Of a stretch of 42,989 nucleotides of DNA, positions 24,500-34,156 are shown one piece after another. Origin of the DNA: a virus; the IMG/VR virus record IMGVR_UViG_3300047557_002321, positions 1-42,989 of that record; one strand, 5' to 3'. The position numbers and the translations under genes were made by a program. Each line of letters begins with the position of its first letter. Position 1 is the first letter of the stretch. The notes beneath the pieces were generated by a model. The model ran no database searches. It was not told the origin of the DNA and saw only the letters and a program-made list of their open reading frames with translations.

Positions 24500-25240
24500 T
24501 TAAGGGGCGAGACGGGCTTTATGCAAGCGGCTTTTTTCGTACCATCCTGCAATTTCTGGCGTCCATTGCTGAAGATGGGGCCACATCAGATCGCAAAGCT
24601 GGCGAATTTCCAACTGTGCATCAAGCTTGGCGCGTAAATCCAAGAAATGCAAGAAGGCACGCAGCGTAAAGCTCACAACAAAATGCTGCCGATAATCAAA
24701 TGGCAAAATGCCACGAGCATGCTCTTCTGCATAGCCTTGATCAATAAGCTGTGCATAGCGTTGGGCTGCTGCTAGGCATAGGCCAAGATCGGTATTCCTT
24801 TGTGCGATGGTGTATTCATAGCTTTTTCCTTGGCGGTCGTGATAACGGCCAGCGGGGCGCAGGTAGAACACCTCCTCCAGCTCCAATTCGCCATTAGCAG
24901 CACGACAAATCCGCTCGCCCGTGTAGCGCATCGATTGCACATCGAAGCTCACGCCCACCCGGTGGGTGCGGGCCTGCTGCATCACCGAATGGGGAAACCA
25001 GCCCACGTTCAGGACGATCTGAGCGTGCTCCAGTGGCCCGTAGTGGCCGCGTTCACCCGCCAGCAGCCGCTTCACGCAGATCTCGCCAGCGCGAGCCTCA
25101 TCAGGCCAGCTCTCGCGCATATCGACCACGAAGCCTTCGGAATAATCTTGGTGCATGCTCGCGTACACGCACTGTTGCGGGCTGGGGGTGGCAGCGATTA
25201 GATCTACCTTGAACAAGGGATCAATGGAAGGAAAAATCAT
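24500..25240 (-). CDS. thyX: Flavin-dependent thymidylate synthase
   Basis: ThyX makes dTMP from dUMP using FAD, NADPH and methylene-tetrahydrofolate. The 246-residue protein has the family signature region at residues 91-106 (RTHRVGVSFDVQSMRY). This is one residue longer than the usual RHRxxxxxxxSxRY form, a variant I associate with cyanobacterial ThyX. It overlaps the upstream gene by ATGA and precedes DUF3310. G+C in 24901-25140 is about 65% (156 of 240 counted) against 43% at 26161-26220, so part of the gene looks recently acquired from a GC-rich host. Confidence 0.93.
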   Translation of the reverse strand: MIFPSIDPLFKVDLIAATPSPQQCVYASMHQDYSEGFVVDMRESWPDEARAGEICVKRLLAGERGHYGPLEHAQIVLNVGWFPHSVMQQARTHRVGVSFDVQSMRYTGERICRAANGELELEEVFYLRPAGRYHDRQGKSYEYTIAQRNTDLGLCLAAAQRYAQLIDQGYAEEHARGILPFDYRQHFVVSFTLRAFLHFLDLRAKLDAQLEIRQLCDLMWPHLQQWTPEIAGWYEKSRLHKARLAP

Positions 25241-26275: not shown

Positions 26276-26872
26276 TCAGACGGCAGCTAACTGTACGTTA
26301 GCCCCTTGATTCTGATAGTGGCCCGTATAGGCTTCTCCAACGTCGCCGTTGAGTTGGTACAGCATCACTTGCACGATGCCCTCGTTCGCATAAATGCGAG
26401 CAGGAAACGGCGTGGGATTGGCAATATGCATGGTCAAATGACCACTCCAGCCAGGCTCGATGGGCGTCACGTTGATGATGATGCCGCAACGAGCGTAGGT
26501 GGATTTGCCATCACATAGCCCCATGATGCACGGTGGCATGGAGATCAGCTCAAGACTGACGCCAAGACCAAAGCTATGGGGAGGAAGCACGAAAAAAGAA
26601 CTTCCATTGTCATGTACGAGCGGAGCATGGTAAGGCACCGTTGCATCAGACAGTTTGGGGTCGAGAGTGGGCTTGCGCTCTCCCTTGAATTCCTTCCCAT
26701 CGAACACCAGAAACTGATCTGGCGATAGGCGAATGTCGTAGCCTGCTTGGGAAAGGCCATAAGAAATGGCCTTTGTCCCATTGTCAAGTGTGCGACGCTT
26801 TTCGCCTACGAAAGGAAGAAAAACATCCAGTTCAGCAAGCTGCTGAATTTCCTTGTCGTAGAGCAGGCTCAT
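26276..26872 (-). CDS. dCTP deaminase family protein lacking the catalytic Glu
   Basis: The 198 residues match dCTP deaminase: SYGLSQAGYDIRL (37-49), GKSTYARCGI (122-131, with the nucleotide-binding Ser124 and Arg128), INVTPIEPGWSGH, then PARIYANEGIVQV. In the family the segment after the PGW motif reads LE(I/F)xN, where the Glu (E138 in E. coli Dcd) is the catalytic base. Here it reads LTMHIANP, with His149 in its place. The protein may bind dCTP/dTTP without deaminating, or use another base. Active enzyme would feed dUTP, and after conversion dUMP, to ThyX. Confidence 0.85.
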   Translation of the reverse strand: MSLLYDKEIQQLAELDVFLPFVGEKRRTLDNGTKAISYGLSQAGYDIRLSPDQFLVFDGKEFKGERKPTLDPKLSDATVPYHAPLVHDNGSSFFVLPPHSFGLGVSLELISMPPCIMGLCDGKSTYARCGIIINVTPIEPGWSGHLTMHIANPTPFPARIYANEGIVQVMLYQLNGDVGEAYTGHYQNQGANVQLAAV

Positions 26873-26874
26873 CT

Positions 26875-27129
26875 TCAGAAGAGATCGTCAGAGCCGCCTG
26901 CAGCTTCGTTAACCCATACGCTCGCATAGGATTTTGGGCTGTCCTTTTGACCCTTGACTTTCACTGTTCCTGTATAACCAGGGGCGCGATCGGAAGAGCG
27001 TTTTTGGTTTACCCATACCGCTACGTCAAGCGAATAATTGCCACGCTCATTTGGGCCTGCCTGTTTCAAGGCATTGAGCGTATCCGCAGTCAAATCAATG
27101 GCGGCAGTAATGGGAGGGCGGTTTGCCAT
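26875..27129 (-). CDS. Possible internal gene: SSB-like protein (84 residues)
   Basis: This is the in-frame 3' part of the 408-residue gene. The ATG at 27129 is preceded by GGAGAAA at a normal distance (GGAG, then 8 bases). The product begins MANRPPITAAIDLTADTLNALK, contains a Lys-rich strand region (APGYTGTVKVKGQKDSPKS) and ends GGSDDLF, like the acidic C-terminal tip by which SSB proteins recruit partners. The adjoining annealing protein and exonuclease fit an SSB. Whether one or two products are made cannot be seen. Confidence 0.5.
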   Translation of the reverse strand: MANRPPITAAIDLTADTLNALKQAGPNERGNYSLDVAVWVNQKRSSDRAPGYTGTVKVKGQKDSPKSYASVWVNEAAGGSDDLF

Positions 27130-28101
27130 GGGTGTTTCTCCATCAGGAGTAATTGGATGCCCGTCAGGGCTCAGCCACTTTAGCCATTCTATTGCGTATC
27201 CGTCAACCCCAGCCATGCCAGCCAGCTCGACAATGCTTGAAACTTCAAGGTCGGAGGTACTCCAGTTTTCTCTTGTGCCAGAAATCACGCAATTCTTTTT
27301 CTTCAGCCATTGCTTAATAATGTTTTCAATGTAAAGCGCAAAATCACCGCTTACCAACCCAAGCCGTTCGACCAATGTCCATCCATTTTTCTTGTGCCTA
27401 GAAAAACGAGTTTTCCACGTATTTGTAATGCCAACTTTTTGTTCTTTACCGCGAGATAGCAGGTAGATCCATGCTGGCTCGTTTGTCTTGTATCCAAATT
27501 TTGCGCATTGAGCACAGCCAGTTCCGCCTAGTGCACGATCACAGACTTTTGCTTCGTATATGTGACCATTTTTGCATTTCCATTTCATCTTGCGAGAGCT
27601 GCTGCCAGGCTTGACAGTGGATGGATCCCATCCATATGCTTCTTTTGCGAGCCATGGCATCACTGTGGCTAAATCGTTTTCTCCTTTAATTGCGTAACGT
27701 CCGCTGCAATAAGGACAGCCGTGACTATTTCTAGTCCTTTGATTTGGCGACGCAATCCATTTATGACCCTTATCGCAAATCCATTCAAGTTTCTTATTGC
27801 TTCCTTTTGTATAACAAGATGGATCCCATCCATGAGCCTGCATAGCCACATCTGGGCATGTCGTGGCCAAATCGTTGAAGCCAGCAAGCACGCGTTTTCC
27901 GCTACAAAAATGACATCCATTTCCAGTTTGTACTCGGCAATTAGGGCTCATTAGCCATACATGCCCACGACCGCAAATCCATGGCATCTTTTTATTTGAA
28001 CAAGCGTGAATCTCCTTTGGATTCCATTGATAAGCTTGACTTGCTAAATCAGGACGCAACGTATACAAATCATTGATGCCGACTACAAGTGGTGATGCCA
28101 T
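26875..28101 (-). CDS. Triple zinc-ribbon / GIY-YIG-like nuclease fused to an SSB-like domain
   Basis: The 408-residue protein has three zinc-ribbon repeats with ligands C43/H47/C63/C66, C109/H113/C129/C132 and C176/H180/C196/C199. A GIY-YIG-like nuclease segment follows (about 210-270: WIYLLSRG, KVGIT at 222-226, R232, E259). The last 84 residues (from Met325) look like a phage single-strand DNA-binding protein, with beta strands and an acidic SDDLF tail. It lies between exonuclease and dcd-like genes. A SD-preceded ATG at 27129 would give the SSB-like part alone. The N-terminal part looks like a homing-type insertion kept in frame. Confidence 0.75.
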   Translation of the reverse strand: MASPLVVGINDLYTLRPDLASQAYQWNPKEIHACSNKKMPWICGRGHVWLMSPNCRVQTGNGCHFCSGKRVLAGFNDLATTCPDVAMQAHGWDPSCYTKGSNKKLEWICDKGHKWIASPNQRTRNSHGCPYCSGRYAIKGENDLATVMPWLAKEAYGWDPSTVKPGSSSRKMKWKCKNGHIYEAKVCDRALGGTGCAQCAKFGYKTNEPAWIYLLSRGKEQKVGITNTWKTRFSRHKKNGWTLVERLGLVSGDFALYIENIIKQWLKKKNCVISGTRENWSTSDLEVSSIVELAGMAGVDGYAIEWLKWLSPDGHPITPDGETPMANRPPITAAIDLTADTLNALKQAGPNERGNYSLDVAVWVNQKRSSDRAPGYTGTVKVKGQKDSPKSYASVWVNEAAGGSDDLF

Positions 28102-31036: not shown

Positions 31037-34000
31037 GTGCAGAGCCAAGAAATGGCTGCCACAATGGGGAGCGCTGTTCGACCGTGCTGCGTGGCATTCT
31101 CGATTCTTGATCACCTCGACGCCTTGGAGCCCAGCAACGAACCTGGGAAATACCGTTGCCCAGCATGTGGTGGCAATGATTTCACCGTGAACAAAGACAA
31201 CGGAGCGTTCAATTGCTGGCACGATACCAGTCCTGCGCATCGCGCCGAAATTCGTGATGCCATTGCTCCCCTTACTCGCTGGGAAAAACCACCACGAGAT
31301 CCAGGCTCCTACGTGTTTGGCTACAAAAATGCCAATGGGAAAGAAGTGGTAGTAGTGCATCGTGATGATGCCAGTGGTAGTAAAAAGATCTGGCAAGAAT
31401 TTCCCACTATTGATAAAACTTCCAACGGCTATAAAACTCAGCTTCAGGAAGTAAAGGCTGGTGTGTTGCCCTATAAATACGAGGAAGCGATTAAAACCAG
31501 CAAGGAAACTGGTTTACCTATCTTCGTCGTAGAAGGAGAGCTTGCCTGCGAGCAATTATGGGCTATTGGCATTCCTTCCATTACATTTCTTGGCGGCAGC
31601 AAACAGTATCGAACCAATGGTGATTATTCCCATCTTCTGAAGAACGAAAAGCTTGTTCTTTGCCCTGACCGTGATGAACAGGGCGTTGCCTTCATGGCAG
31701 AAGTGGCGGCAGATAATCCTGGCGCACAATGGCTTTATGCTGATCCGCTTTCCTGGGAATGGGACAATCTGCCATCAGGCAATGGTTATGACGTTGGAGA
31801 CTATATCAGCGATGGAGCGGAGAAAGATGATTTGCTTTCTTCCATTGTTTCCAAAAGCCGCCACAAGAATAATGATGGCAAGCCGTCCTACGAAGAAATC
31901 ATTTCAACTGTCGAAAATTTTGTTGGCCTGTACGCTAATGAAGCTCGTATTGGCTATGAAACTTCTCATTGGCTAGAGCAACGTAGCGTGAAGATGAGCC
32001 AGCAAAATATTGACAAGATTATTGAAGAAGCGCGAGCAAGGGTATATGGAAAAGAAGAAATTGAAAGCATTGACGCTCTTGCCATTGCCAACTCTGATAA
32101 GGCTCGTGATTGGTTAATTGCTGGAATTATTCCCTTGGGAAGCGTTACGTTACTTGCTGCAGCAGGCGGCACTGGTAAAGCCCAGGCTTTGTGGTCCAAG
32201 GTGCTAACGCCTACTGGCTGGAAGCTCATGGGTGACATCTGCGTGGGCGATGAAGTCATTGCGGGCGACGGCTCCGTTACAAAGGTGATTGACGTCTTCC
32301 CGCAAGGTAAGAAGCCCATTTTCAAGGTGCAAATGAGCGACGGCGCCACGACGCATTGTTGCGATGAACACCTCTGGCTTACCAAGACTCAGCGGGATCG
32401 TGATCGCGACAGGGATTGGAGCGTGCGGCCTCTTAAGGAGATCCGCGAGACTCTTCATTTGCATAAGTCGAACGGGCGCAAGGATCGCAATCACTCCATT
32501 CCCATGGTGGGCCCAGTTCAATTCAAGGAGCGTGATTTACCAATTGATCCTTATGTGCTTGGCGTTCTTCTTGGGGATGGCTGCATGTCGTCTGGCAATC
32601 TTGATATCACTGTTTCAGACGATGAAATCACCGATAGTTTCTGGGCTCGACTAGAGGAAAAGCATTCCTTGGCTCTTAAAGAAGATCGTGGTGGCTGCAA
32701 GAGCTATACGATTGCCGAGAATGGCTCGCGCAATGGAATCAGGAATGCACTAAAGGGGCTTGGTTTGTGGGGTTGTCGTTCTTGGGAAAAGTTTGTGCCT
32801 GATCAGTATTTGTATTCTTCTGTTCAGCAACGTCTTGATTTACTTCATGGCTTGATGGATACAGACGGAACTACTGGCGGCACTTCTACCACCTTTGATA
32901 GTTCCTCAAGGGATTTGCGGGATGCCGTGGCGACTATCGTTATGTCGTTGGGCGGCAAGGTGACATGCAGTGAACGGCAGCCTTGGTTCAATTACAAAGG
33001 CGAGAAGAAACAGGGTCGCATCAGTTACCGCGCTTTTATCTCCATGCCCCCTGGATTCAAGAGCTTCAGCATTGAAGCAAAGGCTTCAAAAGAAATCGAG
33101 CGCACCAAGTATGTGCCTGCACGACTAATTGATTCTGTCGAATACATTGGAGACGACGAAGCCCAGTGCATCATGGTGGATCATCCTTCTCACACTTATG
33201 TGACGGATGATTTTATCGTTACCCATAACACCACTCTTGTCTACAACTGGGCATTGCACGTTGCTCTTGGTACGCCATGGAGTGGAAGGCGCTGCATGAA
33301 AGGCCGTTGCTTGCTGATCAGCGCCGACGAGCCTCTCACTGATACGGCTGAGAAACTTTCAGTGATTGGCTATCAAGATGCTGGACTGGAGCCGGGTGAT
33401 ATTAGTTTCTGGGAGACTTGGCGCTTTGCCCATATGAAGCAGCTTGAGGATTACATCAGGAAGGAACGTCCTTCTCTGGTGATGATTGACAGCCTGACTG
33501 CTTGTCTTGCTGGTATGAACGTGGACCTAGCGAAGAGCAGTGCTGGTGATGCCATTTATGGCCTTCGGGACATGGCTAATACTTACCGCTGCTCCATTGT
33601 GATTCTTCACCATCTCAACAAAAGTGGAGGACTTCGTGATTCCACCAGCTTTGTTGACAACGTAAGTGAAGTGGTGAAGCTCACTCGTTCCGAAAGCTTC
33701 GATCCAAATGAATTCACCTTGGAGTGGCTGAAGAGCAGGAGTGGTCTTGCTGGCAAGCACGTTCTGAAGCGCGATAGCTTGAACTATGGCTGGCATTATG
33801 AAGGACCGCTTGGTGGCTCTCTTGAGGAGCTTACTCGCGTGGTGAATGCCGTGGAGATGCGTAAAGCAGAACGTTTTAGCAAGCATCAAGTGTCGGCTCT
33901 TACTGGCTCGTTTGAGGTTGGTTCTACTGGCAAAATGCTGGAAATTGCGCGTCGTCAAGGTCTTATCACTTCATCGTTTCAGGATGGTCTCAATGGAGAA

Positions 34001-34156
34001 AAAGAGCGTCTTTATCATTCATGGGAATGGCAAGAGCCGGATCTTACTTTCCCTGCCCCTGACTCTGCCCTCGACTCTGCCCTCGACTCTGCCCCTGAAA
34101 TCGTTGCCGACGAGCCTGATGATACCGAAGAAGCCAATTACGACGATCTTTTCTAA
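31037..34156 (+). CDS. TOPRIM primase-RecA-like helicase, interrupted by an intein
   Basis: The 1039-codon frame gives a 689-residue protein after removal of a 350-residue intein. Zinc finger C41/C44/C60/H62, TOPRIM with VVEGE (164-168) and CPDRDEQG (D211, D213), then a RepA/RecA-like ATPase: Walker A AAGGTGK (375-381) completed by TT after the intein, and Walker B LVMIDSL near 815-821. It primes and unwinds at the phage fork. The tail is acidic with three DSA(L/P) units and ends YDDLF. The start is uncertain: GTG 31037 has GAGG one base away, and ATG 31052 or 31064 are alternatives. A terminator follows at 34202-34228. Confidence 0.9.
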   Translation: MQSQEMAATMGSAVRPCCVAFSILDHLDALEPSNEPGKYRCPACGGNDFTVNKDNGAFNCWHDTSPAHRAEIRDAIAPLTRWEKPPRDPGSYVFGYKNANGKEVVVVHRDDASGSKKIWQEFPTIDKTSNGYKTQLQEVKAGVLPYKYEEAIKTSKETGLPIFVVEGELACEQLWAIGIPSITFLGGSKQYRTNGDYSHLLKNEKLVLCPDRDEQGVAFMAEVAADNPGAQWLYADPLSWEWDNLPSGNGYDVGDYISDGAEKDDLLSSIVSKSRHKNNDGKPSYEEIISTVENFVGLYANEARIGYETSHWLEQRSVKMSQQNIDKIIEEARARVYGKEEIESIDALAIANSDKARDWLIAGIIPLGSVTLLAAAGGTGKAQALWSKVLTPTGWKLMGDICVGDEVIAGDGSVTKVIDVFPQGKKPIFKVQMSDGATTHCCDEHLWLTKTQRDRDRDRDWSVRPLKEIRETLHLHKSNGRKDRNHSIPMVGPVQFKERDLPIDPYVLGVLLGDGCMSSGNLDITVSDDEITDSFWARLEEKHSLALKEDRGGCKSYTIAENGSRNGIRNALKGLGLWGCRSWEKFVPDQYLYSSVQQRLDLLHGLMDTDGTTGGTSTTFDSSSRDLRDAVATIVMSLGGKVTCSERQPWFNYKGEKKQGRISYRAFISMPPGFKSFSIEAKASKEIERTKYVPARLIDSVEYIGDDEAQCIMVDHPSHTYVTDDFIVTHNTTLVYNWALHVALGTPWSGRRCMKGRCLLISADEPLTDTAEKLSVIGYQDAGLEPGDISFWETWRFAHMKQLEDYIRKERPSLVMIDSLTACLAGMNVDLAKSSAGDAIYGLRDMANTYRCSIVILHHLNKSGGLRDSTSFVDNVSEVVKLTRSESFDPNEFTLEWLKSRSGLAGKHVLKRDSLNYGWHYEGPLGGSLEELTRVVNAVEMRKAERFSKHQVSALTGSFEVGSTGKMLEIARRQGLITSSFQDGLNGEKERLYHSWEWQEPDLTFPAPDSALDSALDSAPEIVADEPDDTEEANYDDLF
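32180..33229 (+). other. Intein with LAGLIDADG homing endonuclease, class 3 type
   Basis: Residues 382-731 of the frame split the Walker A motif exactly between Lys381 and Thr732. Intein residue 1 is Ala, not Cys/Ser. Block A is KVLTPTGWKLMGDI and the region continues CVGDEVIAGDG. Block B has CDEHLW (intein Trp66). Block F is AQCIMVD (intein Cys330). Block G is IVTHN with Thr348 before His349-Asn350, followed by +1 Thr. Trp in block B, Cys in block F, Thr in block G and no position-1 nucleophile are the marks of class 3 inteins. LAGLIDADG motifs: YVLGVLLGDGCM (about 504-515) and LLHGLMDTDGT (about 602-612). Confidence 0.92.
34061..34096 (+). repeat. Three 12-base tandem repeats in the primase-helicase tail
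   Basis: GACTCTGCCCTC occurs at 34061-34072 and 34073-34084, and a third unit with two changes (GACTCTGCCCCT) at 34085-34096. They encode DSAL-DSAL-DSAP in the acidic linker before the DDLF end. Confidence 0.9.

Follow-up and report, generated by a model that had tools for sequence, protein, structure and literature searches.

The question raised by this locus is what a 350-residue insertion is doing between the Walker A Lys and Thr of a phage primase-helicase, that is, whether the insertion is able to remove itself from its host protein and, if so, by what chemistry. At a probability which we place at roughly 0.95, it is predicted to be an active class 3 intein, one that carries as well a two-motif LAGLIDADG homing endonuclease. 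By ‘window’ is meant here the whole stretch of DNA that was analysed, i.e., a 42,989-base record from an uncultured phage. Its genes include that of a tape measure protein along with a replication set (thy1, dcd, Sak, and the primase-helicase) like that of Synechococcus phage S-CBS4, and a cyanobacterial host is plausible. Adjoining nucleotide metabolism genes (dcd, 26276-26872; thy1, 24500-25240) there is also, on the minus strand at 26875-28101, a gene whose 408-residue product has matches to endonuclease/HNH endonuclease PHROGs.

The primase-helicase is found on the plus strand, within an open reading frame that runs uninterrupted from 31037 to 34156. Its start codon probably is the GTG at 31091, since several relatives possess a Met at this position (MSFSILDHL or MAFNILDHL vs. 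VAFSILDHL in the window). The initial annotation had supplied a precursor of 1039 residues, spliced to 689; going by the start position of relatives, these lengths probably are instead 1021 and 671, and residue numbers counted in the earlier manner, under which the insert consists of residues 382-731, therefore fall by 18. The N-extein matches DNA primase/helicase phrog_239 of PHROGs (4e-17) and, weakly, Toprim_2 of Pfam (E of 0.022). The C-extein matches AAA_25 (profile positions 47-194, 5e-17) and is 58% identical to the RecA-family ATPase of S-CBS4. The C-terminal tail of the protein displays a repeat, DSALDSALDSA (34060-34095), which is absent from aligned relatives.

The insert is in frame and translates without a stop, with AQALW following upon GGTGK and THN preceding TTLVYNW; the protein reads LLAAAGGTGK before the insert and TTLVYNWALHVALG after it. 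The two flanks are one ATPase, as the AAA_25 profile runs on from N-extein to C-extein, i.e., the first match (9-46) stops at profile position 46, with 47 falling on the residue at which the C-extein begins. That same junction is shared by alleles lacking the insert. Thus, with IMG/VR scanned using a C-extein alignment, and the best 80 loci kept, the intein is absent from 74, in which the frame passes uninterrupted across GG[TVES]GK|[ST], and is present in the other six, ending there in THN. Empty as well is the gene of S-CBS4 (GSGK|STLIYNW), which, among cultured phages, was the only one found to have a close C-extein. An exact splitting of GGTGK from TT, as originally described, hence is upheld. 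It follows from the empty-allele junctions that the intein has Ala first and Asn last, with the C-extein beginning in Thr, a residue that in some relatives is Ser. An accident of assembly may be ruled out, as eleven further contigs are filled at the same site. Because 350 residues separate GGTGK from TT, the precursor likely is without ATPase activity prior to splicing; a P-loop intein, that of P. horikoshii RadA, has been reported to disrupt ATPase function (PMC6195587).

Table 1. Features of the primase-helicase gene and its predicted intein, in positions of the window; residue numbers are those of the intein unless PI-SceI is named.
Feature	Positions	Strand	Description or basis
N-extein, primase-helicase	31091..32179	+	Cys-rich N-terminus, TOPRIM-like region, start of AAA_25 ending in GGTGK; start codon probable
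Predicted class 3 intein, 350 residues (AQALW...FIVTHN)	32180..33229	+	Empty alleles, residue set, tree, alignment
Block B	32342..32383	+	Cys61 B:7, His64 B:10, Trp66 B:12 (32375-32377); H 70/70, W 70/70, C at B:7 29/70
LAGLIDADG homing endonuclease domain, residues 113-307	32516..33100	+	PI-SceI profile 7e-21; fold TM 0.72
LAGLIDADG motif 1, block C, PYVLGVLLGDG	32549..32581	+	Asp133 (32576-32578) aligned to PI-SceI Asp218
Nuclease Lys204	32789..32791	+	Aligned to PI-SceI Lys301; K in 69/70
LAGLIDADG motif 2, block E, DLLHGLMDTDG	32837..32869	+	Asp229 (32864-32866) aligned to PI-SceI Asp326
Block F	33158..33205	+	Cys330 = F:4 (33167-33169), expected internal nucleophile; C 70/70
Block G	33209..33232	+	Thr348 G:5, His349, Asn350, +1 Thr (33230-33232); T, H, N each 70/70
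C-extein	33230..34156, stop codon included	+	Walker A TT and remainder of AAA_25 helicase

Class 3 inteins are defined as lacking a nucleophile at position 1 while possessing Trp at B:12, Cys at F:4, and Thr at G:5, the ‘WCT’ set (PMC3196547). Both parts of this description, which had been read initially from the letters of the window, hold up. Residue 1 is Ala, with this boundary fixed by the 74 empty alleles, and the WCT set is complete, H64-L65-W66 constituting B:10-B:12 and T348-H349-N350 constituting G:5-G:7. When 70 inteins, drawn from bacterial genomes as well as viral contigs, are aligned, H64, W66, C330, T348, H349, and N350 all are invariant, these rows being non-independent, however, because of shared descent; residue 1 is Ala in 42 of the 45 inteins for which it could be aligned. 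The patterns employed in the main scan were without the W, F:4 Cys, and G:5 Thr positions. General intein profiles miss this type, as within the window NCBIfam intein_Nterm has no match, intein_Cterm has a weak one (E of 0.45), and Pfam LAGLIDADG_3 and Hom_end score under their own cut-offs. A complete WCT set is seen also in combination with an apparent Cys start (TQK|CQPLYSK, GLGK|CEPKD) or Ser start (GVGK|SQPLSAN, GLGR|SQPLDAK), in L202 (1998-3041) and L208 (1998-3029), at the match starts of L153 and L212, and upstream of the match starts in L185 and L198. Given correct boundaries, these possibly are intermediate between class 1 and class 3.

Assignment to class may be addressed also by phylogeny. 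The maximum-likelihood tree employed is of 38 inteins, with six phage Cys1 inteins serving as class 1 controls and gp41-1 left out. A 100/100 branch parts those six from the window intein and 31 others, consistent with the clustering with class 3 inteins that had been anticipated. The window intein groups with other primase-site inteins (100/100), nested within a larger class 3 group (96/93). Likewise phage class 3 inteins are mycobacteriophage TerL1-c (Bethlehem gp10) and Catera Gp206, which reside, though, in different host proteins and on the other main class 3 branch; the former has been seen to splice and to cut DNA (PMC5050341) and the latter to splice (PMC3196547). Standing in for these two are L129, the TerL intein of a Fromanvirus, as is the tested Bethlehem gp10, and L117, each presumed from phage group and gene to be the respective orthologue. 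Near the primase inteins are those of L105, L106, and L107 (Verrucomicrobiales, Microvirga, and Zavarzinella assemblies), which are 44-49% identical and at a GK|A site. The intein of L126 (Vibrio phage 12VC501 terminase) possesses Ala1, Cys F:4, and Thr G:5, but HIN, thus no Trp in the B:12 column, and falls on the class 3 side of the tree.

The predicted structure is a HINT fold like that of solved class 3 inteins. The AlphaFold model used is that from the 70-row alignment (mean pLDDT 96.2, pTM 0.93), an 8-sequence alignment having given a poor model (pLDDT 63). With Foldseek, the top solved matches are PI-SceI entries (1ef0_A, TM 0.72 by query length), and lower in the list are class 3 DnaB inteins (6bs8_B, TM 0.79, and 6rix_B, 0.77, both by target length); with single-sequence searching, the best PDB matches are class 3 DnaB inteins (6rix, 5.5e-13; 6riy, 1.4e-12). 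These Mycobacterium DnaB inteins (MsmDnaBi1, 6bs8; MchDnaB1, 6rix) have in common with the window intein a nucleophile-free start, the WCT triad, and the HINT fold, with MsmDnaBi1 likewise a P-loop insertion in a helicase (PMC6195587), but are without a nuclease domain. PI-SceI, the yeast VMA intein, instead has in common with the window intein the nuclease fold and its aligned catalytic residues, while splicing as class 1 and residing in another host.

Asp218, Asp326, and Lys301 are catalytic residues of PI-SceI. By profile alignment with that protein, both catalytic Asp and one Lys are intact in the window intein, and a two-motif nuclease indeed would appear, as first suggested, to have been kept. 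Median pN/pS is 0.17 for the splicing domain, 0.37 for the nuclease, and 0.26 and 0.27 for the exteins, values which point to purifying selection on the intein but which are rough, most pairs of alleles being close to saturated at synonymous sites.

Inteins in the same primase-helicase, at the same codon position, are seen in L002-L009, L090, L095, and L097, and are 61-80% identical to that of the window. The primase-site inteins of IMG/VR, that is, are allelic variants of the window element, with those in the tree forming one clade. Comparison of these alleles with their hosts suggests mobility. L090 and L095 have exteins that are 99.2% identical vs. inteins that are 63.2% identical; with L005 and L095, it is the inteins that are closer (86.3%) vs. 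the exteins (63.5%). By AU tests, for which pairs were picked once distances were known, the exteins reject a pairing of L005 with L095 (p 0.003), as do the inteins a pairing of L090 with L095 (p 0.001). As intein and host-gene trees thus conflict, inteins appear to have moved repeatedly at this site, with repeated horizontal acquisition at one codon the simplest reading, which lends weight to the initial annotation's suggestion that the element may be mobile. Intein presence is scattered over the extein tree (6 changes vs. a shuffled mean of 7.6-7.7). The inteins of L090 (4951-6000) and L095 (4001-5050), at the same codon in near-identical hosts, could represent either allele replacement or separate invasions.

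From the window's own copy, taken alone, transfer is not evident: its intein is closest to that of L004 (79.7%), and the closest host genes, of L011 (85%) and L012, are empty. Co-conversion around the intein site is only hinted at. Among four pairs compared, identity is lower near the junction for L009/L038 and on one side for L095/L085, and is not lower there for L090/L088 or L097/L075. For L009/L038, identity in the flanks, taken to 60 bases from the insertion, is 0.78 and 0.85, below most sequence farther out. Base composition, considered as a mark of foreign origin, is uninformative (50% G+C for the intein vs. 47% for the window).

Other accounts of the insertion nevertheless deserve weighing. 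Were this a decayed, non-splicing class 3 intein, then the phage's helicase gene would be either dead or replaced elsewhere. Nucleophile-free inteins that do not splice exist, e.g., Arthrobacter FB24 Arth_1007 (PMC3196547). Here, however, none of the six catalytic positions has been lost, the splicing domain is under tighter constraint than are the exteins, the host frame is intact to both sides, and no second primase-helicase is seen among window proteins tested, such that decay strikes us as highly improbable. Even harder to credit is that the Cys at F:4 is incidental, i.e., within a class 1 intein minus its Cys1 or within a class 2 intein, for which the +1 residue attacks directly. The tree parts the window intein from Cys1 inteins; the three residues of the WCT set co-occur, invariantly in the 70, along with Ala1 in 42/45; and class 2 is found, as reported, only in KlbA (PMC3196547). 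These outweigh, in our view, that Cys at F:4 is known among class 1 inteins (PMC3196547) and that gp41-1, which by sequence is the nearest class 1 relative, is close to the window intein.

A further alternative accepts splicing but has the nuclease dead and the scattered distribution a product of repeated loss following old vertical inheritance. Empty alleles do outnumber filled ones, and could come from precise deletion. Loss alone is insufficient, though, because intein and host-gene trees disagree in either direction; in addition, the catalytic residues of the nuclease are intact and its pN/pS is below 1. This alternative, too, we therefore view as unlikely.

With the insertion taken, then, to be an active class 3 intein, its chemistry may be described by extension from studied relatives (PMC3196547, PMC7891396). 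Cys330 (F:4) would attack the peptide bond preceding Ala1, giving rise to the branched intermediate of class 3; the N-extein would then be transferred to the +1 Thr, Asn350 would cyclise, and the exteins would ligate, with ATPase activity restored by the resulting GGTGK-TT. The nuclease, for its part, presumably would cut empty alleles of co-infecting phages near GGCACTGGTAAA|ACC, with repair of the cut allele then copying the intein in.

The element belongs to a known family, as class 3 inteins are numerous and relatives at GK|A are common. By 2020, the count of class 3 inteins stood at 1701, with LAGLIDADG motifs in 82.5% (PMC7891396). In the phage collection, 563 records match the window intein at an E of 1e-5, the weak end of which may include class 1 inteins, and a GK|A junction is the site of most of the relatives examined. 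Phage P-loop ATPases are a usual home of class 3 inteins. What is added is one more host gene, as a non-exhaustive literature search found no intein in the AAA_25 primase-helicase of S-CBS4-like siphophages. What is added also is something of a natural experiment, i.e., a single site with 74 empty and several filled alleles, over which repeated homing would be traceable in uncultured phages. As to how class 3 inteins function, it brings no change of view.

A feature of note in the primase-site inteins is found at B:7. All of those examined possess Cys-Cys at B:6-B:7 (window 32357-32362), as do 26 of the 70 aligned inteins, whereas B:7 in characterised class 3 inteins is Gly or Asp, or Ser in AceL NrdHF (PMC7891396). 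In the structure of the latter, the B:7 Ser and F:4 Cys are found to either side of the same peptide bond (PMC7891396). Cys61 thus would adjoin the splice junction at which the F:4 Cys acts, and a Cys61/Cys330 disulfide therefore is conceivable. Such a disulfide could halt splicing under oxidation, thereby making phage replication responsive to host redox state, a speculation that we consider to have little chance of being correct. The redox switch of MsmDnaBi1 is Cys48-Cys118 (PMC6195587). That intein possesses Asp at B:7 (DxxH) vs. the Cys of the window intein (CxxH), and the residue equivalent to its Cys48 is in the window intein other than Cys, such that any switch here possibly would be a distinct one.

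Two further loci possess interrupted frames. In L189 (2001-3071), an intein frame of class 3 type has one in-frame stop, which may be due to decay of that copy or to sequencing error. In L111 (Pseudomonas phage PA1C), the intein frame shifts partway, and the annotation splits the gene into two SNF2 helicase genes that overlap, which may represent a frameshift, an error, or a decayed intein.
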